Assembly (NCBI GenBank): GCA_900696515.1 | Contig: CAADGK010000015.1 | Coordinates: 124,001-188,000 of the forward strand | Direction: 5' to 3' | DNA length: 64,000 bases | Source of the DNA: an uncultured Nitrosospira sp. | GTDB taxonomy: Bacteria > Nitrospirota > Nitrospiria > Nitrospirales > Nitrospiraceae | Part shown: positions 28,351 to 55,709 of the stretch, piece after piece | Layout of the letters: each line of letters starts with the position of its first letter | Numbering within the stretch: position 1 is the stretch's first letter | Program-made: the position numbers and the translations under genes | The notes under the pieces: generated by a model | The model's database searches: none | What the model was told of the DNA's origin: nothing | Seen by the model: the letters and a program-made list of their open reading frames with translations, nothing else

Positions 28351-28534
28351 AGGATGCTGAAAAAGTCCGCCAGCGGCGTTCTCGCATTGCTCAGAGGCTC
28401 AACGTAGGAAAGGCGAAGGCAAAGTGCCTATCCGCTCGCATGTAATCGAAGCGAGCGGTTCAAGCGAAGCTTGGTATGTACCTCCTCACCTCTTCGCTCG
28501 CTGCGGCCTTGCTGGCTGACATTTTGAGCATCCT
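28351..28534. repeat. MITE-like palindromic intergenic repeat, copy 1
   Basis: 184 bp beginning AGGATGCTGAAAAAG and ending TTTTGAGCATCCT, which are imperfect terminal inverted repeats. The first ~30 bp and last ~45 bp match copy 2 at 55556-55709 almost exactly; the middle differs in length. No coding capacity. No clear target duplication was found. I associate repeats of this type with Nitrospira genomes. Confidence 0.7.
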
Positions 28535-31138: not shown

Positions 31139-31843
31139 ATGATTTCTGTCATCATCCCGACGTACAATGAAGAAAAGGCGTTGCCGAACACGCTCCAGGC
31201 CTTGTTTGCGCAGCCGGGCTCATTCGAAACCCTCCTCGTCGACGGCGGCAGTACCGACCGGACGCGAGCAATCGCCAAAGAGTCAGCACTCAGTCCTCAG
31301 TCCTCAGTACTCAGCACTGTACGTTGTCTCACCGCCCCCAAAGGTCGCGCCTCCCAAATGAACGCCGGGGCCAAGCAGGCGAACGGCGAATGGCTGCTCT
31401 TTCTCCATGCTGATACGATCTTGCCGGACAGGGCGATTCAACTATTGAATGAGATGGAGGCGGATCAATCGATTCAGGCCGGCGGATTCATGCACCGGTT
31501 TTCCGGCGACGACTGGCGGCTGAAGTTCATTTCCTTTTTGGATAATTTCCGCTGCACCCGCAGCCGGATTATCTATGGTGATCAGGCCCTCTTCGTCCGG
31601 CGAAACCTGTTTGAACAATTGGGCGGGTTTCCCGATCAGCCGATTCTGGAAGACGTTGCCTTCTGTGAACGGCTCATCAAGGTCGCAAACCCGCTCCTGC
31701 TTTCTCCCCCGGTCATCACCGACGCCAGAAAGTTCATCAAGATGGGCATCTGGCGGAGCTTCATCCGTGTGCTCCTCATCATCCTCCATGTCGAATATCG
31801 CCTGCCGGTGCTGCCTCGAACATTTTTTCAAGATGTGCGGTAA
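31139..31843 (+). CDS. TIGR04283-type glycosyltransferase
   Basis: 234 aa GT2-fold glycosyltransferase with ISVIIPTYNEEKALPNTL, LLVDGGSTDRT, HADT, and IYGDQALFVRR, matching the family named for arsenosugar-type clusters. A 13-residue Ser-rich insertion near residue 51 (SALSPQSSVLSTV) is encoded by a tandem CTCAGT repeat. The C-terminal coding block 31719-31843 reappears twice downstream. Downstream of a ferritin-like gene, in the same operon. Confidence 0.85.
   Translation: MISVIIPTYNEEKALPNTLQALFAQPGSFETLLVDGGSTDRTRAIAKESALSPQSSVLSTVRCLTAPKGRASQMNAGAKQANGEWLLFLHADTILPDRAIQLLNEMEADQSIQAGGFMHRFSGDDWRLKFISFLDNFRCTRSRIIYGDQALFVRRNLFEQLGGFPDQPILEDVAFCERLIKVANPLLLSPPVITDARKFIKMGIWRSFIRVLLIILHVEYRLPVLPRTFFQDVR
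31281..31321 (+). repeat. CTCAGT-type tandem repeat inside the glycosyltransferase gene
   Basis: About 41 bp of degenerate 7- to 8-bp units (CACTCAGT, CCTCAGT, CCTCAGT, ACTCAGC). It keeps the reading frame and encodes a Ser-rich loop. A similar CAG/TCAGC-rich stretch lies at 31081-31120 in the end of the ferritin-like gene. Confidence 0.6.
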
Positions 31844-32923: not shown

Positions 32924-33050
32924 CCGACGCCAGAAAGTTCATCAAGATGGGCATCTGGCGGAGTTTCATCCGTGTGCTGCTCATCATCCTCCACGTCGAA
33001 TATCGCCTGCCGGTGCTGCCTCGAACATTTTTTCAAGACGTGCGGTAAGG
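32924..33050 (+). repeat. Glycosyltransferase 3'-end repeat, copy 2
   Basis: 127 bp, 4 mismatches to copy 1, including the stop codon; only the 3' end is present, with no start. It lies after the RelE/XRE cassette. Differences are at codon third positions or silent. Confidence 0.9.
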
Positions 33051-33931: not shown

Positions 33932-34029
33932 CGTGCCGGAACGCTTTTCGTCGACGCGTCAGCAGCGTATTGGGGAAACGGCATCGAGCGCGGATCCGAA
34001 CCCTCAATGGACAATAGAATCCGGGATCG

Positions 34030-34125
34030 CTGGCGGAGCTTCATCCGCGTGCTGCTGATCATCCTCCACGTTGAATATCGCCTGCCGGTGCTGCCGCGAA
34101 CATTTTTCAAAGACGTGCGGTAAGG
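34030..34125 (+). repeat. Glycosyltransferase 3'-end repeat, copy 3
   Basis: 96 bp aligning with the last 96 bp of copies 1 and 2, about 9 mismatches to copy 1, with the stop codon kept. Changes are mostly silent (one gives Lys for Gln). It follows the Phd/VapC cassette. Confidence 0.88.
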
Positions 34126-37144: not shown

Positions 37145-39370
37145 CTATGACGCGGGTGGAGTGGAACATCCAGACGGACCTGACCCGCTGGAATTAGGCC
37201 TGATGGTGAAGCCGAACATCATGGCGTGGTCTTCATGGGACAAGTTGTGGCAATGGACCACGTACTTGCCGGTGAATGTTCTGAAGTTTCGGTAGAAGGT
37301 CACGGATTCACCCCCCTGTAGCGAGACGACATCCTCGCGCGCAACATCGCCTCCCTGTGCTGGTTGCCCGTCCCTGGAGACAATCTGGTGCTCCTCCTGG
37401 TGGATGTGGATCGGATGGGTCCAGCCGCCGCCTTCGTTCACAAAGGTCCAGAGCTCGGCCTGGCCTACGGTCACATCGGCTTCATTTCGGTCGTGATCGA
37501 ACGGTCGACCATTAATGGTCCAGATATGCTCTCCCCCCGCGTTTTCTTTGTTAAACCGAAACACCCTGTTCGGCACGTTGAGGTCCCATGTCGGCAGGTC
37601 CCGCAATCGAACCGGCAGATTGGCAGGACCCGCTTCGCCCGAGGGAGGATCCCCTTCGATCTCAAATTTCAACACCGGCACGCAATAGTTCGCATCGAAC
37701 CCCCGGTCCCGCGGTTCTGTGAGCTTGCGGCCATCCAACATCTGCGCGATGTTCGATAGGTAGATCACGTCTCCAATTTTGGTCAGGGCTCCATCCTGGT
37801 ACTGCGTAAAATCGATGACTACTTCCCGGCGCTTGGCCGGCCAGATCACGATGGAATCGCGGACGAGCGGAGCGGGCAGCAGCCCCCCGTCGCTCGCGAT
37901 CTGTGTGAAGCGCATGCACTGTTGCCCGAGCGCGTTTCGGCCCCGGCGGTCGACAAAGTTGTATTGGCCCTGCTGTCCGGGAGCCGCCGCCACCCCGACC
38001 AGCACATTTCCTGCCGCATCTTTTTGCTCTCGCATCAGCTTGAACTCATACTGCCGCGCGATGGAGGCATCGAGAAACCGGAATCGGTACTTTCGCCGCT
38101 TGACTTTCAGCACCGGGCAGGCCTTCCCATTGACGGTAAACACGTCCCCGACAAAGCCGTTGTCGGGAAAATGTTTAAAGAAGGTTCTCCCGTACAAGTC
38201 CGGTCGAGGAACTCCGCAGCCGCCCACCTGGTGGAAGTCCTGATGAGGCGTCACGCCGTCGTCGAGCCGGCAGTCGAAAAAGACCAACGGGATGTCATAG
38301 TCCACCTTGAAGGTGTTCCCATCGGGTCTTCGGACACCGGGCAAGCTGGGCACCTCACTACTTTCCTGGCCGGGATCCAGGACCGGATCGTAGATCGGGT
38401 AAAGGCCCACCAGCCCCTTGTACACATTGGCGCCGGTATGGTCCATCCGGTGATCGTGGAACCAGAGAAATGATTGCTTTTCCCGATCGTCGCCGCCGGC
38501 GGGCCAGTTCAGATAGAGATTCTCCACCCATTCCCCCGGTTTGTAGGCACAGGGTTTGTGGAAGGGATTGCCGTCGCTCTCCGGCGCGGTATGGCCGTTG
38601 TGCAGGTGGGTGAGAAACGCCCGGTCAGGAGCTCCGAAATCCGGGACGGGAGCCGGGTCAGCTGATCCGAGGTCATTCTCAAAACGCACCAGACAGGGAT
38701 GGTCATACTCGGCGTTGATCATCGGGCCGGGGAACGTTCCATTGAATCCCCAAATCGTGCTGGCCGGTAAGGTCACCTTTTGTTCAGAATCCGGGGTGAC
38801 CGTCGGAGGTGTGACAACGCCTCCTGCTGCATTGATGGGCACCGCCTTGAGGTTGGTGAAGTGATGTTGACCTACTTGCAAGTTGATGCGGTAATACTTC
38901 GTAGTGGCAATCGATCCGTGGTAGTTCGGCAGTGGCGGGTCGCAAAGCTTATTGCCGTTGCTATCGAACGTGACACGGATGCCGTCGACTCCCACCTGAT
39001 GGGTATCGACTTGCTGGGAGTCATTCTTGTTGCCTCCATACGGCGGGGTAAAACCACTCGTGTTGGTCTCGGGTTGTAAGGGGGTGGGTGGTAAAATTTC
39101 TTCCGTGAATGCATCGAAATCTCCGATACCACGCTTGACCGTGAAGGTGGTGTTTTTGCCCTTCGTCACTCGATTCGTTCGCCCGCCGATCAACGGACTG
39201 GTCGGATAAACCTCTGTGGTCGCCTGACATTGGCCCGCTGGGTTATTGTCAGGGCAATGGGCCAGCACCTCCTGCAGGGCACCAGGGCCGAGCATGGCCG
39301 CGCCTCCGGTCGCGAGTCCTACCTTCAACACGTCTCGCCGGCTCACGTGTGTTGCATCGTCGTCGCTCAT
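37145..39370 (-). CDS. Multicopper oxidase 1 (CotA/bilirubin-oxidase-like, Tat-exported)
   Basis: 741 aa. Tat signal SRRDVLKVG near residue 10. Copper sites: THLHNGHTAPESDG (254-267), WFHDHRMDHTG (303-313), THPIHIHQEEH near residue 660, and YVVHCHNLSHEDHAMM with HCH at 706-708, so all four copper-ligand regions are present. A CotA-type enzyme oxidising metal ions or phenolics with O2. Ribosome-binding site GGGAGGGG. Long 5' leader of about 300 nt from a TATAAG -10 at 39678-39683. Confidence 0.92.
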   Translation of the reverse strand: MSDDDATHVSRRDVLKVGLATGGAAMLGPGALQEVLAHCPDNNPAGQCQATTEVYPTSPLIGGRTNRVTKGKNTTFTVKRGIGDFDAFTEEILPPTPLQPETNTSGFTPPYGGNKNDSQQVDTHQVGVDGIRVTFDSNGNKLCDPPLPNYHGSIATTKYYRINLQVGQHHFTNLKAVPINAAGGVVTPPTVTPDSEQKVTLPASTIWGFNGTFPGPMINAEYDHPCLVRFENDLGSADPAPVPDFGAPDRAFLTHLHNGHTAPESDGNPFHKPCAYKPGEWVENLYLNWPAGGDDREKQSFLWFHDHRMDHTGANVYKGLVGLYPIYDPVLDPGQESSEVPSLPGVRRPDGNTFKVDYDIPLVFFDCRLDDGVTPHQDFHQVGGCGVPRPDLYGRTFFKHFPDNGFVGDVFTVNGKACPVLKVKRRKYRFRFLDASIARQYEFKLMREQKDAAGNVLVGVAAAPGQQGQYNFVDRRGRNALGQQCMRFTQIASDGGLLPAPLVRDSIVIWPAKRREVVIDFTQYQDGALTKIGDVIYLSNIAQMLDGRKLTEPRDRGFDANYCVPVLKFEIEGDPPSGEAGPANLPVRLRDLPTWDLNVPNRVFRFNKENAGGEHIWTINGRPFDHDRNEADVTVGQAELWTFVNEGGGWTHPIHIHQEEHQIVSRDGQPAQGGDVAREDVVSLQGGESVTFYRNFRTFTGKYVVHCHNLSHEDHAMMFGFTIRPNSSGSGPSGCSTPPAS

Positions 39371-40111: not shown

Positions 40112-42229
40112 TTACGGTTGGATCTCCCAGCCGAACATCATCGCATGGTCTTCATGGGCCAAGTTGTGGCAGTGCACCACGTACTTGCCGGTAAACGTTC
40201 GGAAGTTCCGGTAGAAGGTCACGGACTCACTGCCTTCCAGTGCGACGACGTCTTCCCGTGAACGGTCGTCCGGGTGAGCCGCATCCGGTACGGGCTTGTT
40301 CTTTCGAGAGACGATTTGGTGTTCCTCTTGGTGGATATGGATCGGATGGGTCCAGCCGCCGCCCGCGTTCTCAAAGGTCCAGAGCTCGGGTTGGCCTCGT
40401 TTGACAAAGGCTTCCATCCGATTGTGATCAAACGGTCTCCCGTTGATGGTCCACAGCAGTTCGCCGCCGACTCCCTGTTTATTGAACTTGAAGACCCGAC
40501 GGCGGAGTTTCGTGAGGTCTGGCAGTTCCGGCAACTGGCGCAGCGGCCGGTCCAGGGGCGGCATCACACTCGCATCCGGCGCATCCTCGTCGATGACGAA
40601 TTTCAGGACGGGGACACAGTAATTCGGATCAAAGCCCCCCGATCCCGGCGTGGTGCGTTTCCGTCCGTCGAGCATTTGAAGGGTATTCGCAAGGTAGAGT
40701 ACATCGCCAATGTCCGGTACGCTTCCGTCCATGTATCGGCTGAAGTCGATGATCACTTCGCGACGCTTGGCCGGCCAGACTTCGATGGAGTTGCGGTCGA
40801 TGGGGAAGGGGAGCAGCCCGCCGTCGGAGGCAATTTGCCTGAACCGCATGCACTGTTGTCCGAGCGTGTTCTTGCCGGTGCCGTCGATAAAATTGTATTG
40901 CCCCTGCTGACCAGGGCGGGCTCCGACCGTGCCTTGCATCAGTTTGAACTCATATTGCCGTGCGATCGAGGCATCCAGGAATCGGAAGCGATACTTTCTG
41001 CGTTTGACATGCAACACCGGATAGGCGACGCCGTTGACCGTGAAGACGTCCCCGACAAAGCCCTTGTCAGGGAAATGTTTGAAGAAGGTTTTTCCCCACC
41101 ATTCCGGGTGGGTTTCGTCACAGCCGACGTGGTAATCCCGATGGCGGGTGACGCCGTCGTCCAACCGGCAATCGTAAAAGGCCAGCGGAATGTCATACTG
41201 GACATCAAACGAGCCATCGCCGTTCTCCCTGCGAACACCAGGCAGACGAAGTCCCCTGGTTTCATCTCCGGGATCCAGGACCGGATCATAAATCGGATAG
41301 AGGCCGACCAGCCCCTTGTAAACATTGGCGCCGGTATGGTCCATCCGGTGGTCGTGGAACCAGTAGAAAGACTGTTTTTCGTTCGGATCGGCGTCACAGG
41401 CCCAGTTCAGATAGAGATTCTGCGCCCACTGCCCTGGTCCATAGGCACAGGGCTTGTGGAACGGGTTGCCGTCGCTCTCCGGCGCCGTATGTCCATTGTG
41501 GAGGTGGGTCAGGAACCCCCGATCCGGCGCGCCGAAGTTCTGGGAGTCGAGACCGTGATCGTCGCCCAGCAGATTCCGAAAGTGTACCAGACAAGGCTTG
41601 CCATATTCGGCGTTGATCATCGGGCCGGGGAACTGCCCGTTGAACCCCCAGATCGTGCTGGGCGGCAACTTCAACCGGCCGATGCTGCTTTGCCCTGGGG
41701 CTCGGACCACATTGCCCGTGGCGTTGATGGGAACGACATGTTCGGTGGTGAAGTCATGGGGAGCCACCTGCAAGTTGATTTCGTAATACCGGCAGTCCGC
41801 GATCGTGGCGTGATAGTTGGGCAAGGAGCTCCCGTCCTTGCGCTTGCCGTCTACCCCGACCTGATGTTCATCTATGCCATCGGAGTCTTGTTTAGTGCCG
41901 GCGTAGGGCGCCGCATATTGCGGCACGGGGCGTAAGGCGGTGGGAACCGGCAGCTCTTGCGAAAAGGCGTCAAAATCTCCGGCGAGCCGAGACACCACGT
42001 TCACCGTCCTGCCGAGCACCGTCGTTTGGACGATCCGTCCGCCGATCAGCGGACTGGTCGGAAACGTTTCCCTCGCCTTCCCGCATGAGGTCATCGCTGA
42101 ACTGTCGTAGCAGGATGCAGCTAAGGCGTCCCCGATGATTCCCTGGCTGATCATGGCCGCGCCTCCGGTCACGAGCCCTGCTTTCAGCATGTCTCTCCGG
42201 CTCACCTGTGTTAATTCGTCGTCACTCAT
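40112..42229 (-). CDS. Multicopper oxidase 2 (paralogue of oxidase 1)
   Basis: 705 aa from ATG 42229, preceded by AGAGGAG; the frame is open to 42379 but the extra 50 residues are unlike a signal. Tat motif SRRDMLKAG. Copper sites: THLHNGHTAPESDG, WFHDHRMDHTG, THPIHIHQEEH, and VVHCHNLAHEDHAMM. Clearly duplicated from a common ancestor with oxidase 1. Leader of about 300 nt from TTGCGC-17-TATAAG (-10 at 42533-42528). Confidence 0.92.
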   Translation of the reverse strand: MSDDELTQVSRRDMLKAGLVTGGAAMISQGIIGDALAASCYDSSAMTSCGKARETFPTSPLIGGRIVQTTVLGRTVNVVSRLAGDFDAFSQELPVPTALRPVPQYAAPYAGTKQDSDGIDEHQVGVDGKRKDGSSLPNYHATIADCRYYEINLQVAPHDFTTEHVVPINATGNVVRAPGQSSIGRLKLPPSTIWGFNGQFPGPMINAEYGKPCLVHFRNLLGDDHGLDSQNFGAPDRGFLTHLHNGHTAPESDGNPFHKPCAYGPGQWAQNLYLNWACDADPNEKQSFYWFHDHRMDHTGANVYKGLVGLYPIYDPVLDPGDETRGLRLPGVRRENGDGSFDVQYDIPLAFYDCRLDDGVTRHRDYHVGCDETHPEWWGKTFFKHFPDKGFVGDVFTVNGVAYPVLHVKRRKYRFRFLDASIARQYEFKLMQGTVGARPGQQGQYNFIDGTGKNTLGQQCMRFRQIASDGGLLPFPIDRNSIEVWPAKRREVIIDFSRYMDGSVPDIGDVLYLANTLQMLDGRKRTTPGSGGFDPNYCVPVLKFVIDEDAPDASVMPPLDRPLRQLPELPDLTKLRRRVFKFNKQGVGGELLWTINGRPFDHNRMEAFVKRGQPELWTFENAGGGWTHPIHIHQEEHQIVSRKNKPVPDAAHPDDRSREDVVALEGSESVTFYRNFRTFTGKYVVHCHNLAHEDHAMMFGWEIQP

Positions 42230-42655
42230 GATTGTTCGCGCTCCTCTTGTTATGACTGTCAATAGGTTCATAGGTACGCTGGTCCGAGAGCCTCCTACGC
42301 GCGTGCGTCTCTCGTCGGAATGTGTGATCCGGCGACACCTCCTTTCATCGTCGGGCGTTGGCGGCTTCGGTGATTGCACTCTGCGTATCGTGTGGATTCA
42401 TCCTGATTCTGTCGTCCGGTGTGTGACTCTCGTCGAGCCTATCGAGTCGTTCTCTTTCAGCGGATCATCGCCGGTTCAGTGGATAGAGGACTGTGAGAAC
42501 AGCCTTTGCGGTGTTCATCGGGATGACCTTATACTCTAAGTCGTAGCGGGGCGCAAGAGTTTTAATGGATGTATTTTAAATGGTTGTTAGGAAACGGTTA
42601 GCCACGTGCAGGGGAATCACATTCCCGACTTGAGGGATCGAGGTGAAGGGTGGGG

Positions 42656-44063: not shown

Positions 44064-45926
44064 ATGGGAAAGAAAGTACTGCTCGTTGTGCGAGCATGCA
44101 TAATCCTGGCAGTCACCGTCGTGATCGGGTCATTCGTCGACCCGGCACAGGCGAAGGATCCACGGGTCGAATTTGAATTGACCGATGAGCCGGGGGCATG
44201 GTTCCGGATCAAGGATAGCGGCGGGTCGCTGGCGGTCGCGACTCCAGGAACTGAAGTGCGGTTCAGCGGCAAGTCCAATACGGTCCATACCCGCACCAGC
44301 CTGATTTTCCCGACCGGTGCGGCGAACATGCCGTTTGATACGGAACCACGAAAGGGTTCGGACGAAGTGGTGCTTCGTACGCCCGGGCTGTACGTGTTTA
44401 CCTGCAAAATCCACCCGTATATGTTCGGGGCGGTGATCGTGGATGATCCGGCCACAGCGGGGCTTGATCTGGGTGAGAATATTTCACTGGTCAATGGCAT
44501 TCAGGTGCCGACGGCCAGTGATCTTGCCGTGCGCCTCTTGCGCACGTTCTTCATCGCGACGAACCCTGCCAATTGGAAAGATTACAGTGTGGGGGGAGAC
44601 TGGCACGTTTCCTATCCGGCAGTCACCGTACGAGTCACTGGAGGACTCACACTCACGATTGATGACGCGATGGCGGCCTTTGGCTTAGCAAACAATACTC
44701 CAAAGGAGGCTCTTTTCAATCCCGCAGGCACTGTTGGTGAGGTCTGGGTCGACACGCAGTTTGAGAAGACCAGCGGGAAGAGCAAGCCTGGAACGGCCAC
44801 AGCGGTCAACGGTAGTGATTGGACATTGCGTCGAAAAGTGGCCCTCCCAGGGATCAATATGAATAACCCCCACAATATGTGGACGGATCGAAACCAAAAT
44901 CTGATCTATCAGACGCAGTGGTTTGACAGTAAACTGACGGTCTTCAATCGATTGACTGGTGCCTTGTTGAATAACATCTCGGTTGGTGAATCTCCTTCTC
45001 ATGTGATGACCAGGGTGGATACCGATCAACTCCATGTGGCGTTGAACGGTTCGCCTGACAATGACTCGGTGGTTGAGCTTAGGCCACTGGCTGCCGGAAT
45101 TCAGCGACGCATCAATATCGGCCGTGGGAATCCGCATGCCCATTGGATGGGTCATGACGGGAAGTTGATGGTAACGCCTAATGCGTTCTCGGCAGACAGC
45201 ACGCAATACAACTTCGACGGTGATGTTGTAGAGGCTATTCTTCCGGCCGGGGCTCTTCCGATTGCGACCGGCATGACGCCTGATTCGAAATTCACCTATG
45301 TGGCGAGCCTGCTGAACAGCACCATCACGGTGATTGATACCCAGTCGAAGTCAGTCGTGACAACCATTAATCTACTGGAGAGATATGATCCACTGGGAGG
45401 TTGTCCTGGTTCAGCTTTCTATCAAGGACTTCCTGGAAAAGATTGTTCGTTTGTTGGTGCCTTGCCGATCCAGACTCCGGTCAGTCCAGATGGAAAGAAC
45501 ATGGTTACAGCCAATACACTCAGCGGCACGATCACGGTCGTGGATATTGCCACGAATACCGTTGTGAAAACGTTGCCCTGTGATCCCGGTTGCCATGGTG
45601 TGCAGTACGGCGCTAAGCAGGGTGGCGGTTACTATGCCTATGTTTCCAGCAAGTTTTCTAATGCCTTAATCGTTGTGGATCCCGATATTGATGGCGATGG
45701 GAATCCGAACGATGCGGATATTGTGGGGCGTATCTTGCTGGCGGGTACTGCTGCATCCGATGATACCGTCACAAGCCTTGCAGGCATGGGTGGGCAAGGG
45801 ATTCTCACTATCCCTGTGGTCTACAACGGGTGGGTGCAGAAGCTGCCTCAGAATTGGGCATGCCAACTATCGGGTGAGCAACTGAACCCGATCGGTGCGG
45901 CTGTCACTCCACCGGCCTGTCCCTAA
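44064..45926 (+). CDS. Cupredoxin-beta-propeller protein 1
   Basis: 620 aa with signal peptide (cleavage near AQA-KD, ~30). A cupredoxin domain (about 33-128) has His75, Cys114, His117 and Met120 (FTCKIHPYM), a complete type-1 copper set. A long domain (250-610) with YVTN/NHL-like blades follows, keeping His270 (NNPHNMW), His313 (PSHVMT), His324, His358/360 (PHAHWMG) and His511 (CDPGCHGV). These His recur in the paralogue at 47765. Nitrous oxide reductase has propeller then cupredoxin; here the order is reversed. Strong AGGAGG site. Function unknown; periplasmic electron transfer or copper binding is inferred. Confidence 0.82.
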   Translation: MGKKVLLVVRACIILAVTVVIGSFVDPAQAKDPRVEFELTDEPGAWFRIKDSGGSLAVATPGTEVRFSGKSNTVHTRTSLIFPTGAANMPFDTEPRKGSDEVVLRTPGLYVFTCKIHPYMFGAVIVDDPATAGLDLGENISLVNGIQVPTASDLAVRLLRTFFIATNPANWKDYSVGGDWHVSYPAVTVRVTGGLTLTIDDAMAAFGLANNTPKEALFNPAGTVGEVWVDTQFEKTSGKSKPGTATAVNGSDWTLRRKVALPGINMNNPHNMWTDRNQNLIYQTQWFDSKLTVFNRLTGALLNNISVGESPSHVMTRVDTDQLHVALNGSPDNDSVVELRPLAAGIQRRINIGRGNPHAHWMGHDGKLMVTPNAFSADSTQYNFDGDVVEAILPAGALPIATGMTPDSKFTYVASLLNSTITVIDTQSKSVVTTINLLERYDPLGGCPGSAFYQGLPGKDCSFVGALPIQTPVSPDGKNMVTANTLSGTITVVDIATNTVVKTLPCDPGCHGVQYGAKQGGGYYAYVSSKFSNALIVVDPDIDGDGNPNDADIVGRILLAGTAASDDTVTSLAGMGGQGILTIPVVYNGWVQKLPQNWACQLSGEQLNPIGAAVTPPACP

Positions 45927-46258: not shown

Positions 46259-46380
46259 CAACGTTTCACGCTTTATGAACGACGTATCGTGAGGAGCTGG
46301 AGGTCCGAGGCTTGAAGCGTGAGCTGTCTGCCTCCAACCTCCTACTTCCCACTCCCAACTTCAGCCATCCGTTCCTCTAC

Positions 46381-46542
46381 GGTCTCACCGCGATCGGGGC
46401 GCGGCGTGCCCGGAATTTGGCCAGGATGGGCGCCAGGATTTCATGTGCGTCGGGAGAGGTGAGCGACTCTTGCAGCTTCAGCAGTTTCTCCTCCGTCATC
46501 GACTCTAGGCTCACCAAGGCTTCTCCCGCCCGATAGCGGACC
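46381..46542 (-). pseudogene. 3'-end copy of the HEAT-repeat gene
   Basis: 162 bp, about 8 mismatches to 50037-50198, same orientation, with a stop codon (TAG instead of TAA) at the matching place. Only the last ~53 codons are present. It lies 3.5 kb from the intact gene. Confidence 0.88.
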
Positions 46543-46702
46543 GATTACTAGTCAGCGCGGAGCAGCTTAGAAAGCTTGTTAAAGGCTGACATGTGATCCG
46601 CTCGTTATGAGTCCCAGATCAGTTCAGTGAGATCGGACAAGAACGTGAGCCAAAATTTTCTCGTCGAGAAAACACTCTCTTACCTACAGATGAAAGCGCT
46701 CG

Positions 46703-46736
46703 TGAATCTTTTTAGATACTGAATCTATTTAGATAC
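46703..46736. promoter_or_regulatory. Tandem 17-bp dyads, copper-island site 3
   Basis: TGAATCTTTTTAGATAC followed directly by TGAATCTATTTAGATAC. Only one base differs between the two units. It lies 380 bp before the lipoprotein gene leading cupredoxin-propeller 2. Confidence 0.65.
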
Positions 46737-46906
46737 ATATCGCATAGATGGATGGGAGGAGGTTCTCACAACAACATCGTCTCATCACTGGATCCATGGT
46801 CGGACAACGATGCATGAGCGTATGAAATGCTTGTCCTGGAGCGATCTATCACATGTGGGCGAGATTACGAAACAGCAGAGGTTGATGCACTCCGTTAGGA
46901 GCGTAC

Positions 46907-46924
46907 TGTCTAGTCGGTTGGACA
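46907..46924. promoter_or_regulatory. TGTCTA-N6-TGGACA dyad, third site
   Basis: TGTCTA-GTCGGT-TGGACA; one mismatch from the perfect dyads at 39811 and 42871. Confidence 0.4.
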
Positions 46925-47113
46925 TTTCTTGATGGAATGTTACTTGCGTTCAAATTCATGGAAGAGAAGTACGCAAGTGTACAGAGCCATAACGTAGTTG
47001 AACAATTAAGTTGTGTCAGTGTGTAAAAAAGCAACTGCCTCTCATCTTGATCCTCTCAGCACGTTGAACCTCTCAGTACCACGCAAGGTATCCTGTGGAG
47101 GGGGAAGTGTGTC

Positions 47114-47641
47114 GTGGTGACGAAGGAGTGTTCCCGCAGCATCGGGCAGGATCACAAATCGGCTATGCAAATCGATCGCTTCATTAAGAAAGTGTTTTTG
47201 ATGATTGTGGTTCTGTGCGGAGGTTGCGGTCCGTCCGTCCCCGATGGAGCAGTGAGCGGGTCGTCTCCATCGCCGATCAGCGCCGGTCAGGTCGAGCGAA
47301 CAGGCAATCCTCCTTCGTCGACGATCAGTCGTGTGACGACGTCTCCGAATAGGGTTGAAAACGAATCAAGTAGGGCGGCAGCTGCTGAACGGGCAGATGA
47401 TCGCTCTTCTCCGTCTCAGCCGTCTATTCCTCAGTCCATTGCGAAGGAGCTCAGTTCCCCGGATGCCCGAGACCGGTATCGAGCATTGGACCACTGGGAA
47501 GCCAGGAACAGCAAGATGCCGCTGGATCCAGTGTTTGAAGCGATGGAGGATGACGATCCAGCCGTGCGGGCCAAAGCCACGGCGATTGTGGAGCAATATT
47601 GGGCAAGGGAGCAGGAGCGGGAGAAAGGGCGGAACAACTAA
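47114..47641 (+). CDS. Hypothetical lipoprotein with HEAT-like C-terminus
   Basis: 175 aa from GTG 47114, with GGAGGGGG upstream; ATG 47165 is an alternative that shortens the n-region. Lipobox ends LCGGC near residue 38. A Ser/Pro-rich linker (about 42-105) leads to a helical segment (RDRYRALDHWEARNSKMPLD ... DDDPAVRAKATAIVEQYW) like a HEAT repeat. It precedes cupredoxin-propeller 2 and may anchor or assist it. Confidence 0.6.
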   Translation: MVTKECSRSIGQDHKSAMQIDRFIKKVFLMIVVLCGGCGPSVPDGAVSGSSPSPISAGQVERTGNPPSSTISRVTTSPNRVENESSRAAAAERADDRSSPSQPSIPQSIAKELSSPDARDRYRALDHWEARNSKMPLDPVFEAMEDDDPAVRAKATAIVEQYWAREQEREKGRNN

Positions 47642-47764
47642 GTAACGGGTCGGAGAAAGGAGCTTCGTATCTGGCTATTCTTGATTCAGTGCAGTGCGTG
47701 TTCGAGAAGTGTTACGGAGACTGGTTCAAAGTCGTGTGAAGTAGTTGTCAAACAAGGAGGCGTC

Positions 47765-49870
47765 ATGAAACTCAGTCGTGTATTACCCCTGGCGGCAGGA
47801 TTGCTGTTGGGAGCGAGTCAAGGTGTGTTTGCGGACGTGACCTTTACCGTCAGCGACACGCCGGGTCACTGGTTTGATGCAGGTGATGCGTGGGACCTTA
47901 AGGACAATGCCGGGAATAAACTTGGTGGCAGGTCGCTGGCTGTGATTGCTCCCGGCCAGGCCGTGCATTTCATACAGAACGATGCGCAAAAAGCTATGGA
48001 AAGCTATCACACCATTACCAATTTGGTGTGGCCAACGGCTGCGAATGGGCCGGTGGGGCCTATGGGTATCGAAGAGGCGGCGAATAAGAATGATCACCAC
48101 GTCACCCTTACTACGCCCGGTCTCTATGTCTGGGTATGCAAGCTTCATCCTTATATGCTCGGTGCGGTCATTGTGGACAATTCAGCCACCACGAGCACTG
48201 CCGCTTCAGATCCCACGAATGCATTTAACGGGGCTTCATTCGATCTGGGGGATCAGAATGGCGACCTGAGTCTCTTAGGGGCGGATGCGGTCGCTCTTCT
48301 CCAGGGCACACCGGGGAAAATCACGGTTAAAGACACGAGTGATGTTGCGGCTCGCCTCCTCCGTGCCTTCTTCATCGTGACGAACCCTGGAAACTGGAAG
48401 GATTATCGGAAGGCCAATTTGCCGTCTCCACAGAACATCTACCAGCCGGTTTATCCTAATGTGCCGGTCCATGCCAACGGCGGACCGGTATCAGTCGATT
48501 TGAAAACGTATCTCTTAGGGAAGGACTATGACGGCGGGGTGATCGAAGCACAGCACAAGCCAAGCCAGAACGGCATCGGCGAGGTTTGGGTGGATACAGC
48601 CTATGAATTGACGGGTGGAAAGCCGGAGCAGTTCCCTGGGACGATGACTGTGGTGTCGGCAACCAGCTGGGATGTCAAGCGGAAGATTGCGTTGCCCGAG
48701 CAGAAGATGAATAATGGCCACAACTTTTGGACCAGCCACGATCAAAACGAGATCTATCAAACCGAGTGGCATGGCAATAGCGTTTATGTGATCAATCGTC
48801 AAAACGGGAAGCTGATTCAGGAAATTGATCTCGTTAATGGACCGGAAGTCCAAGATCCCAAATTCAACGGTCAAACATGCCATGACCCGGCACACGCCAT
48901 GACGCGGGTGGACACGCAGCAACTGCATGTGGGGTGCAATGGTGACAATGCGGTCGTGGAGTTCGACCGAGATCCCACCACAGGCAGGCTGAGCATCAGT
49001 CGGTTTATTCCAATGTCTCAAGGAGGCTCACAGACGCAGCCTCATGCCCACTGGATGGGCTTTGATGGAAAGTCGATGATTACCCCTAACTCAAATACGG
49101 GGGACTCGACCCTATTTAGTTTCACCGCAGATACGATCTTGCGCAAAGAAACCACCGGAGGATTGCCCATCGCAACCGGCATGATGCCGGATTCGAGCAT
49201 CAACTATGTCTCTAACTACTTGGGAGACACGATTTCGGTCATGTGTGGTCAGTATCCACCCGTATCTGGGCCATATGCAGGTTGTGTTCCAGGAACGAAT
49301 CTCAAGAACATCAATTTGCTGAAGGGCTATAACCCAGGCGATGGTACCAACGGTGGTTTGATTCCCGGGGGAGTGGCGAAAGGACCCTACGGAGGGTTCT
49401 CGGTGCAAACTCCTGTCAGTCCTGATGGGAAGTTCGTGATTCAGGGTAATACGTTCAGCGGAACAATTACCATTATTAGAACTGCGAAGGACAATAACGA
49501 TTCATCTACGCGCGATGAAATCGTCAGGAGCATTCCCTGCGATCCCGGCTGCCATGGCGTGAACTTCGGCGCCAAGAAGGGCGGCGGGTACTATGCCTAT
49601 GTCACCAGCAAGTTTGCCAATCGGCTGATCGTGTTGGACTATGATCCGAACAACGACGGTAATGCGAACGATGCCGTCATTGCCGGTGCAGTGGTGTTGG
49701 CGAAAGACAATGTGCCGAAGGATGACCAGATTATCGGCAACAGGGGGATGGGTGCCCAGGGTGTCATGGCCGTACCCAATATCTATAACGGCTGGGTACA
49801 GCAGCTCCCCAATGGCTACAAGGCTCAGCTTACCAGGGAACAGCGAAATCCAATCGGGCCGCTTCCTTGA
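47765..49870 (+). CDS. Cupredoxin-beta-propeller protein 2
   Basis: 701 aa from ATG 47765, with AAGGAGG upstream; the frame extends back to 47681 without support. Signal peptide about 1-22. Cupredoxin ligands: His82, Cys125, His128, Met131 (WVCKLHPYM). The propeller keeps the same His as paralogue 1: His319 (NNGHNFW), His377 (PAHAMT), His388, His427/429 (PHAHWMG) and CDPGCHGV. Inserted loops make it about 80 residues longer. It may form a copper enzyme or electron carrier; the exact chemistry is unknown. Confidence 0.82.
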   Translation: MKLSRVLPLAAGLLLGASQGVFADVTFTVSDTPGHWFDAGDAWDLKDNAGNKLGGRSLAVIAPGQAVHFIQNDAQKAMESYHTITNLVWPTAANGPVGPMGIEEAANKNDHHVTLTTPGLYVWVCKLHPYMLGAVIVDNSATTSTAASDPTNAFNGASFDLGDQNGDLSLLGADAVALLQGTPGKITVKDTSDVAARLLRAFFIVTNPGNWKDYRKANLPSPQNIYQPVYPNVPVHANGGPVSVDLKTYLLGKDYDGGVIEAQHKPSQNGIGEVWVDTAYELTGGKPEQFPGTMTVVSATSWDVKRKIALPEQKMNNGHNFWTSHDQNEIYQTEWHGNSVYVINRQNGKLIQEIDLVNGPEVQDPKFNGQTCHDPAHAMTRVDTQQLHVGCNGDNAVVEFDRDPTTGRLSISRFIPMSQGGSQTQPHAHWMGFDGKSMITPNSNTGDSTLFSFTADTILRKETTGGLPIATGMMPDSSINYVSNYLGDTISVMCGQYPPVSGPYAGCVPGTNLKNINLLKGYNPGDGTNGGLIPGGVAKGPYGGFSVQTPVSPDGKFVIQGNTFSGTITIIRTAKDNNDSSTRDEIVRSIPCDPGCHGVNFGAKKGGGYYAYVTSKFANRLIVLDYDPNNDGNANDAVIAGAVVLAKDNVPKDDQIIGNRGMGAQGVMAVPNIYNGWVQQLPNGYKAQLTREQRNPIGPLP

Positions 49871-49911
49871 GTATGAAATAAGCGGCTTAGCCGAATACGT
49901 GAGAGAGGTCG

Positions 49912-49942
49912 CGATGGCAACAGCTTGACGCTGTTGCCATCG
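49912..49942. terminator. Terminator-like hairpin after cupredoxin-propeller gene 2
   Basis: Perfect 13-bp stem CGATGGCAACAGC / GCTGTTGCCATCG with a 5-nt loop. Between convergent genes; no T tract. Confidence 0.6.
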
Positions 49943-50032
49943 GGGCTGCAAGTATTTCCCGCGCACTCATGTTATGCAGGTGCATCGGATGTTGGAGTGA
50001 TGGCAAAGAATATGGCTGCAGGAACGATGTAG

Positions 50033-51157
50033 TTAAGGCCTCACCGCGATCGGGGCGCGGCGTGCCCTGAATTTGGCCAGGATGGGCGCCAGGATTTCAT
50101 GCGCGTCGGGCGAGGTGAGCGACTCTTGAAGCCTCAGCAGTTTCTCTTCCGTCATCGACTCTAGACTCACCAAGGCTTCTCCCGCCCGATAGCGGACCCA
50201 CCATTGTTCGTCGTTGAACAGGGCGATCAGCCGGTCCTCATCCTCGACGGTTCCCAATTTCCCCAGCGCGGTTGCGGCTTGCACGCGGACATACCAGGCG
50301 TCATGAGACAAATGACGACGGACGAGCGGGAGGTCCTCCTGGGCTCGAAATTCGCCCAATACGAAGAGGCAGGCCGCCAGCATGTTGGGCGGGGGGAGGC
50401 GATCGGAGATAAATTGTCTGAGGAGCGGGAGGCCTCGTGGGCTGCGTGTCGCCGGCAGGTAGCGAATCAGTCTGGGCCCGATATTCGGATTGCCCTGAAT
50501 CGCGGCGGTGACCAGGGTTTCTGCCGCAGCATCGCGCCCCGCGGTCTTCAGCATTGCCATCACATTGATCGGAGACCAGTCGGCACGGTGGCCGAGAATG
50601 GGTACAAGGAGCGGGAGCGCCGCTTTCGGATCAATGTTGAGTAGGGCCTGTGCCGCATGAAAGGCCAGGAAAGAATTGTGGTGGTTTAGCAAGGGACTGA
50701 TGAGAGTCCAGGCCGATCGTTCCTGTAAACGTCCCAATGTGACCAGGCCGAGAATCCGTTGACTCAGCAGGCGAGACTGTAGGAGTTCTGTTGCACGGTG
50801 AGGACTACCGACGGTCCGGGCGACTCGCACGAGGGGAGCGGTGATTGTCTCAGGGAGGAACTCGTAGGATCGATTCCAGAGATAGAGAAAGATCACGTGA
50901 TCGCGGGGAGTCAGTGCCGGAAGGGGAGGCAGTGATTCATTGATGGATTGTGCGAGGAGCGGGCCCCACTCATGCGTGATGCGTTGTTGTCGACGTTGAT
51001 CTGCCTGACGGTTCCGACGGAACAGCAGAATGGATAGCAAGAGGATGGGAATCATGCAGCCGACCGCGACCGCGCTCATGTACCACAGGTCATATGAGAG
51101 GTGGGCACCGCCGAGAGCCAGCAACGGATTCTCCCTTACGGCATGGGTGGCGTTCAC
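50033..51157 (-). CDS. Membrane-anchored HEAT-repeat protein
   Basis: 374 aa. One membrane helix (about 25-45) followed by a basic segment and HEAT-like helical repeats (LVTLGRLQERSAWTLISPLL, VQAATALGKLGTVEDEDRLI, VRYRAGEALVSL). Part of an exopolysaccharide gene set; likely a scaffold or regulator of the synthase. The start overlaps the YaiO-like gene stop. Its last 162 bp have a second copy at 46381-46542. Confidence 0.75.
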   Translation of the reverse strand: MNATHAVRENPLLALGGAHLSYDLWYMSAVAVGCMIPILLLSILLFRRNRQADQRRQQRITHEWGPLLAQSINESLPPLPALTPRDHVIFLYLWNRSYEFLPETITAPLVRVARTVGSPHRATELLQSRLLSQRILGLVTLGRLQERSAWTLISPLLNHHNSFLAFHAAQALLNIDPKAALPLLVPILGHRADWSPINVMAMLKTAGRDAAAETLVTAAIQGNPNIGPRLIRYLPATRSPRGLPLLRQFISDRLPPPNMLAACLFVLGEFRAQEDLPLVRRHLSHDAWYVRVQAATALGKLGTVEDEDRLIALFNDEQWWVRYRAGEALVSLESMTEEKLLRLQESLTSPDAHEILAPILAKFRARRAPIAVRP

Positions 51158-55555: not shown

Positions 55556-55709
55556 AGGATGCTGAAAAAGTCCGCCAGCGGCGTTCCCTGCCTTCGCCGG
55601 AGCGGCTTCGCGCAGGCAGGTCGCATCGATCAGGGGCTCAACGTACCGAAGCGTACGCTTCGCCTCTTCACTCGCTGCGGCCTTGCTGGACGGCCATTTT
55701 GAGCATCCT
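55556..55709. repeat. MITE-like palindromic intergenic repeat, copy 2
   Basis: 154 bp; starts AGGATGCTGAAAAAG one base after the synthase stop and ends TTTTGAGCATCCT. Shares both ends with copy 1 (28351-28534). The middle has a GC-rich hairpin (CCTGCC ... GGCAGG). A TTTTTCCACAGCCTGC segment near 55772 may belong to a related element. Confidence 0.7.

Follow-up and report, generated by a model that had tools for sequence, protein, structure and literature searches.

A Nitrospira bacterium seems to gain genes repeatedly by recombination at gene ends, without a dedicated recombinase

Introduction

How can the end of a core gene come to stand a second time several kilobases behind that gene, in the same orientation and with other genes in between? 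This question is raised by a locus in a stretch of 64,000 nucleotides (the window; positions 124001-188000 of the 251-kb contig C15) from the draft genome G000 of a nitrite-oxidizing Nitrospira, in which two copies of the 3' end of a HEAT-repeat gene (HEAT) enclose a lipoprotein gene and a gene for a cupredoxin-propeller protein. The locus belongs to the interval between HEAT and a glycosyltransferase gene (GT), which was compared with 79 congeners, designated by codes such as G003 or by name as in the case of YR-XLJ-1. Half of the bacterial gene-acquisition hotspots are known to lack mobile elements, and at integrase-independent hotspots the core genes on either side have been found to recombine homologously (Oliveira et al., 2017, PMC5635113). 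The GT-HEAT region is read here, at a probability of roughly 0.55, as a gene-acquisition hotspot in Nitrospira, in which imported cargo would be anchored by homology and joined illegitimately.

The repeated gene end and its cargo

The features of the locus are as follows.

44064-45926, plus strand: cupredoxin-propeller 1, an older cargo that adjoins HEAT in relatives with one cargo
46377-46542, minus strand: HEAT', the 166-bp copy of the HEAT 3' end with stop codon TAG, found by self-BLAST and with a syntenic counterpart in G011 and G075
46543-50032, plus strand: putative inserted cargo (operator, lipoprotein gene, cupredoxin-propeller 2, terminator hairpin), missing between propeller 1 and HEAT in G006, G075, G027 and G100
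46704-46735, plus strand: operator-like motif, GAATCNNTTTAGATA twice, 17 bp apart, about 400 bp before the lipoprotein gene
47114-47641, plus strand: lipoprotein gene, open reading frame of 175 amino acids, start probably ATG at 47165, with weak HEAT_2 similarity
47765-49870, plus strand: cupredoxin-propeller 2, 701 amino acids, with an N-terminal NirK/pseudoazurin-like cupredoxin domain and a C-terminal beta-propeller
49912-49942, no strand: perfect, terminator-like inverted repeat of 13 bp that separates the stops of the convergent genes propeller 2 and HEAT
50033-51157, minus strand: full-length HEAT-repeat gene, 374 amino acids, its last quarter mosaic and probably imported

The HEAT 3' end at 50033-50198 (stop TAA) recurs as 166 bp at 46377-46542 (stop TAG) with 10 differences, oriented as HEAT itself and 3.66 kb downstream of the HEAT stop codon. 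Self-BLAST aligned 46378-46542 with 50034-50198 at 94.5% identity (E 1e-68), by which a chance origin was rejected. The first-pass annotation of the window had described 162 bp with about 8 mismatches; the repeat itself proved real, its size and its number of differences had to be corrected, and the retention of the stop codon in both ends (TAG versus TAA) was confirmed by the alignment. One border of the repeat is exactly the stop codon, the other an abrupt break at 46542, and no tRNA was found near the repeat. The 3.49 kb between the two ends (46543-50032) hold a tandem operator-like motif, the lipoprotein gene and cupredoxin-propeller 2, in agreement with the approximately 3.5 kb of lipoprotein, propeller and regulatory sequence reported earlier.

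The lipoprotein-propeller 2 pair is conserved in G061, G069, G003 and G007, where it lies amid regulator genes and where the stretch analysed contains no HEAT gene. The motif GAATCNNTTTAGATA, which the window has some 400 bp ahead of the pair, also precedes the pair in G061, G069 and G007 and recurs in the promoters of propeller 1 and of a multicopper oxidase (MCO)-propeller X unit of relatives. Since pair and motif are found together elsewhere, the block represents a self-contained transcription unit from another context. A local tandem duplication of propeller and HEAT end was rejected, as propeller 2 is only about 40% identical to propeller 1 and its relatives sit elsewhere with the lipoprotein gene. 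In many Nitrospira genomes, a doubled GAATCNNTTTAGATA with 17-bp spacing is placed ahead of propeller 1, MCO-propeller X and lipoprotein-propeller 2 units, and further doublets occur in stretches L028 (8341-8372), L099 (9282-9332), L029 (2662) and L089 (1183). The doubled motif looks like the operator of one regulon. Below threshold, propeller 1 resembles the models for hydrazine synthase beta and for lactonase-type nitrous-oxide reductase, and it is possibly a copper redox enzyme.

Empty sites and an older event in relatives

The reading of the block as an insertion, for which the first-pass annotation had proposed a search for an empty site with a single HEAT end, was borne out by the relatives. 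A fully empty site is present in G013 and G088, with GT and HEAT as convergent neighbours and about 120 bp between their stops. In G006, G027, G075 and G100, the order is GT, propeller 1, HEAT, with propeller 1 directly before HEAT and nothing of the lipoprotein-propeller 2 block. Propeller blocks downstream of HEAT number 0, 1 or 2 in relatives, and the GT-HEAT interval as a whole carries the variable cargo (0, 1, 2 or more blocks) that characterizes a hotspot.

A second insertion behind HEAT was observed in G011, where GT is followed by propeller 1, a HEAT fragment, a multicopper oxidase, propeller X and HEAT. The spacer between propeller 1 and this fragment matches the spacer between propeller 1 and HEAT of G075 end to end (84.5%, 381 bp), and thus the G011 fragment occupies the former position of the HEAT end and represents the old terminus of the resident gene. 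The new block of G011 thus entered between the old HEAT terminus and the rest of the HEAT gene. The same fragment is retained in G032 in a decayed state, broken up by a repeat; both genomes share an older insertion, whose HEAT end next to propeller 1 is decaying. The break lies 141 bp from the stop codon in the G011-type fragment versus 166 bp in HEAT', and this different breakpoint together with the different cargo makes the window insertion independent of the G011 event. It also appears to be young, judging from an identity of fragment to full HEAT end of 94.5% versus 77% in the G011 event, whereas the old fragments in G011 and G032 have decayed since insertion.

Divergence of the gene ends

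The differences between the two HEAT ends are almost silent: 9 of 10 are synonymous and 8 fall at third codon positions, while about 29% synonymous changes would be expected from neutral decay of a copied fragment (P 1e-4). Likewise, 4/4 and 8/9 of the differences between GT and its two downstream copies are synonymous, as are 7/8 between the ends of a MATE transporter gene and 23/28 codons between those of a Csm6-like gene, all described below. This near-synonymous divergence identifies the HEAT ends as alleles of two functional HEAT genes rather than as a copy and its decayed duplicate. On this codon pattern, each copy must have evolved at the end of a functioning gene, presumably in different cells, before the two were juxtaposed. 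Judging from the synteny in G011 and G075, the full gene probably carries the imported end, and HEAT' would be the former end of the resident gene, its earlier terminus beside propeller 1.

Duplication of a long target site in the resident during insertion, or gene conversion between the copies, could be advocated because HEAT' is closest to the HEAT end of its own host (94.5% versus 88% or less for others). Such a self-copy would decay at all codon positions, which neither the HEAT ends nor the other cases do, and a target duplication is not expected to end at a stop codon in every case. Self-copying with subsequent decay as well as gene conversion were rejected on this codon-position bias, and the explanation as a whole is very improbable. 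In a tree built from the final 165 bp, the two window copies group together at 99% support and the fragments of G011 and G032 at 100%, while deeper nodes are mostly weak; as a means of finding donors, this tree was rejected as too short. The suggestion that the two ends derive from different strains is supported by the synonymous-only divergence, but the grouping with another strain's HEAT proposed as its check failed to appear: no sampled other strain groups with HEAT', which pairs with its own host's gene.

Mosaic core genes

The flanking core genes themselves bear the traces of homologous recombination. The synonymous identity of the window HEAT to most propeller-bearing genomes amounts to 40-59% in codons 1-275 and to 62-67% in codons 276-374. 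No such rise was detected where no propeller was seen next to HEAT, i.e., in G003 (56 to 43%; its contig ends shortly after HEAT), YR-XLJ-1 (44 to 40%) and G013 (44 to 39%). Between the window and G027, the nucleotide identity of HEAT changes from 45-65% to 80-89% near codon 265, and in this part of the gene the synonymous identity of the close pair G011/G006 falls from 90 to 72%. GT likewise has a mosaic structure, with, e.g., the first 26 codons of G027 identical to those of G006. The mosaic structure of HEAT and GT thus indicates that their ends are exchanged among species together with the genes behind them, and both profiles correspond to those of core genes flanking hotspots of homologous recombination. 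The mosaic 3' quarter of HEAT is consistent with one homologous anchor, although the crossover of the event is not locatable without the donor.

Recurrence at other gene ends

Gene-end copies were also found at the opposite border of the hotspot, as the first-pass annotation had indicated with a parallel case at a toxin-antitoxin locus.

31139-31843, plus strand: glycosyltransferase GT (TIGR04283), the core gene at the opposite edge of the hotspot, which runs towards HEAT
32924-33050, plus strand: GT', a copy of the GT 3' end that spans about 125 bp up to the stop and follows a RelE/HTH toxin-antitoxin pair
33999-34125, plus strand: GT'', a copy of the GT 3' end (last ~94 bp homologous) that follows a Phd/PIN toxin-antitoxin pair

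The final ~125 bp of GT recur at both places, with the toxin-antitoxin pairs between the copies. A junction of GT end, peroxidase and multicopper oxidase as at GT'' is present at another place in G102, whose contig C56 contains a GT 3' fragment of at least 264 bp followed by the spacer, peroxidase and multicopper oxidase of the window. Over the last 125 bp, this fragment is 90% identical to the window GT, and the genome's own GT gene lies on another contig. The ectopic unit in G102 thus shows that the end of a core gene, joined to its cargo, has stood at two different places on the chromosome. In addition, GT 3'-end fragments without an adjoining full GT occur in G031, G066, G078 and G081 (stretches L118, L119, L120 and L121), in two cases beside propeller 1 remnants. 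Behind the di-haem peroxidase of the window, two adjacent multicopper oxidase paralogues of about 72% nucleotide identity lie on the minus strand (37145-39370 and 40112-42379).

The occurrence of the GT end-peroxidase-MCO unit at two places would also fit a single-crossover (Campbell) integration via RecA of small circles carrying cargo and 100-250 bp of a core-gene end, a single homologous step that yields the same product and whose direct repeats could release circles again. Nevertheless, 100-250 bp are short for efficient RecA recombination, a source of circles would be required, and neither a circle nor a circle junction came to light, although no search was aimed at them; the process is rather improbable.

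A scan for partial gene-end repeats within 30-40 kb, covering 1.00 Mb of the 4.6-Mb genome, revealed five non-paralogous 3'-end copies of four genes, namely HEAT, GT (two), the MATE transporter gene and the Csm6-like gene. The MATE 3' end is repeated over 86 bp 10 kb downstream (C15 101859-101944 and 111820-111905; L162); the intervening DNA encodes an IS30-like transposase and two MarR-like regulators besides an MMPL transporter operon. The Csm6-like 3' end is repeated over 239 bp 1.5 kb downstream (contig C56 138320-138558 and 139820-140057; L175, L176) and encloses a PemK/MazF toxin gene. All five copies are direct, lie downstream and end at most 11 bp from the stop. Inverted copies amounted to 0 in the 1.00 Mb, and the 5'-end matches there were confined to paralogues or within-gene repeats, with no non-paralogous copy among them. 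The same scan of two small controls yielded one IS30 remnant in 250 kb of E. coli as well as paralogous repeats and two short 5'-end matches, with no non-paralogous 3'-end copy, in 0.4 Mb of Nitrospira G024. The generality that had been proposed from two gene ends is hence supported by four gene ends with five copies.

An old tandem duplication of whole genes, followed by a deletion that left the 3' end of one copy, would explain the synonymous divergence too, as a pair of complete genes within one genome should change in this manner. However, no intact HEAT or GT duplicate was present at the site in any genome seen, five independent truncations all leaving 3' ends are unlikely, and the G011 fragment sits at the ancestral HEAT position beside propeller 1. 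The propellers 1 and 2, moreover, share about 40% identity versus 94.5% for the HEAT ends, and such an origin is accordingly regarded as quite doubtful.

Recombinases and proposed mechanism

A search detected no tyrosine or serine recombinase on contig C15 (251 kb), in line with the earlier remark that the unit lacks a recombinase; for the GT-HEAT interval this absence refers to these two classes, as transposases were not searched systematically. Near the Csm6 locus, a 140-aa piece 57 kb away was the only tyrosine or serine recombinase. Elsewhere in the genome, 27 tyrosine and 7 serine recombinases were matched. The genome encodes ComEC and DprA but lacks Ku.

These data bear on the possibility that the units are remnants of an integrase-borne element of the type of prophage e14 at icd, which integrates site-specifically, restores its target with an alternative 3' end and leaves the old end outside its far border, the integrase having been lost or acting in trans. 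The anatomy alone fits this type too, recombinases are encoded elsewhere in the genome, and tandem accretion as at GT is typical of islands. Against it stand the lack of a linked recombinase at C15 and Csm6, the cargo of one or two operons with two genes devoid of a phage-family match, and the borders, which vary at one and the same gene (166 and 141 bp from the stop for HEAT; 125, 94 and at least 264 bp for GT) where a site-specific crossover would give a single one. An e14-like origin is consequently unlikely, even if less so than the other alternatives.

According to the preferred reading of homology-anchored, illegitimately joined cargo, the incoming DNA would stem from a relative whose version of the same core gene has other genes behind it. 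One end would undergo homologous recombination in the 3' part of the resident core gene, and the other would be joined without extended homology within the last 100-250 bp of the resident gene. The product would comprise the core gene with the donor 3' end, the new cargo, the old resident 3' end as an untranslated scar and the older neighbour (here propeller 1), and repeated events might stack newer cargo next to the core gene. The order of the crossovers, the RecA-type anchoring, the uptake (e.g., by transformation) and the identity of the donor copy are inferred. With breaks of this kind no sequence would be lost and the core gene would stay intact, so that the insertions would survive; joins further out would delete resident genes and joins at 5' ends would part the gene from its promoter, and survival would thus favour the 3'-end anatomy. 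A more far-reaching version, in which a Nitrospira family of recombinase-less mobile cassettes would use a borrowed coding 3' end as landing and repair arm and circulate and stack behind core genes, is speculative and unlikely.

Several points weigh against the proposed mechanism. The compared genomes are mostly drafts with one per species, and a donor genome with the lipoprotein-propeller 2 pair directly behind HEAT was not found among the 79 congeners. A search of the relatives with the upstream junction sequence (46543-46700) retrieved the operator motif only; as the donor flank of 46543 was not found, the junction at 46542 carries no diagnostic sequence. HEAT' and the full HEAT end are each other's closest sequences, which requires an unsampled close relative as donor. 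Furthermore, the amino-acid identity of the HEAT 3' part rises in G003 as well, and protein constraint accounts for part of its higher conservation.

Relation to known systems

Like the hotspots of Oliveira et al. (2017), the region combines cargo turnover between fixed core genes, mosaic flanks and an interval without integrase with competence genes in the host. While cargo is swapped there by double recombination in both flanks, the addition here is one-sided and leaves a gene-end scar, by which individual additive events could be read and ordered. For the e14 prophage at icd of E. coli (Hill et al., 1989, cited in PMC6379469 and PMC2973815), an alternative 3' end of about 165 bp is described, with ten synonymous and two non-synonymous changes over about 163 bp. 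The likeness to e14/icd extends to the old end beyond the cargo, the direct duplication of the target's 3' end, of which one copy completes the gene, and the nearly exclusively synonymous differences. Unlike this 15-kb prophage with its site-specific integration, the Nitrospira units contain small non-phage cargo, no integrase gene and no fixed crossover point per gene.

For Helicobacter, restriction-modification genes between long direct repeats that arise by target duplication are reported (Nobusato et al., 2000; PMC1643837, PMC4978471). Accessory or selfish genes between long direct repeats of the target, without recombinase, are common to both; the target itself is duplicated there, whereas the copies here are gene 3' ends and different alleles, whose synonymous-only divergence does not agree with the doubling of a single target. 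The combination of one homologous anchor and one illegitimate junction would be shared with homology-facilitated illegitimate recombination in transformation (de Vries and Wackernagel, 2002; Prudhomme et al., 2002; PMC2884548). The latter was demonstrated in laboratory work on other genera, in contrast to the present deduction from natural sequences, in which the resident gene end is retained.

Homologous recombination at element-free hotspots (PMC5635113) and long repeats around restriction-modification genes in Helicobacter were thus already known. Within the reach of the tools, the gene-end scar of allele type is new as a legible trace of single additive events, several of which appear in one Nitrospira genome. 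Gene-end scars with synonymous divergence provide a simple sequence test to find and order additive events, which suggests the resident copy and is usable in uncultured organisms; at hotspots, single-event addition has so far mostly been inferred statistically. The cargo gained in this manner by Nitrospira would include copper redox proteins, multicopper oxidases and toxin-antitoxin pairs.

Besides, 28351-28534 and 55556-55709, which lie 27 kb apart on either side of the hotspot, share two short matches in direct orientation, one of 31 identical bp and one of 50 bp at 90%.

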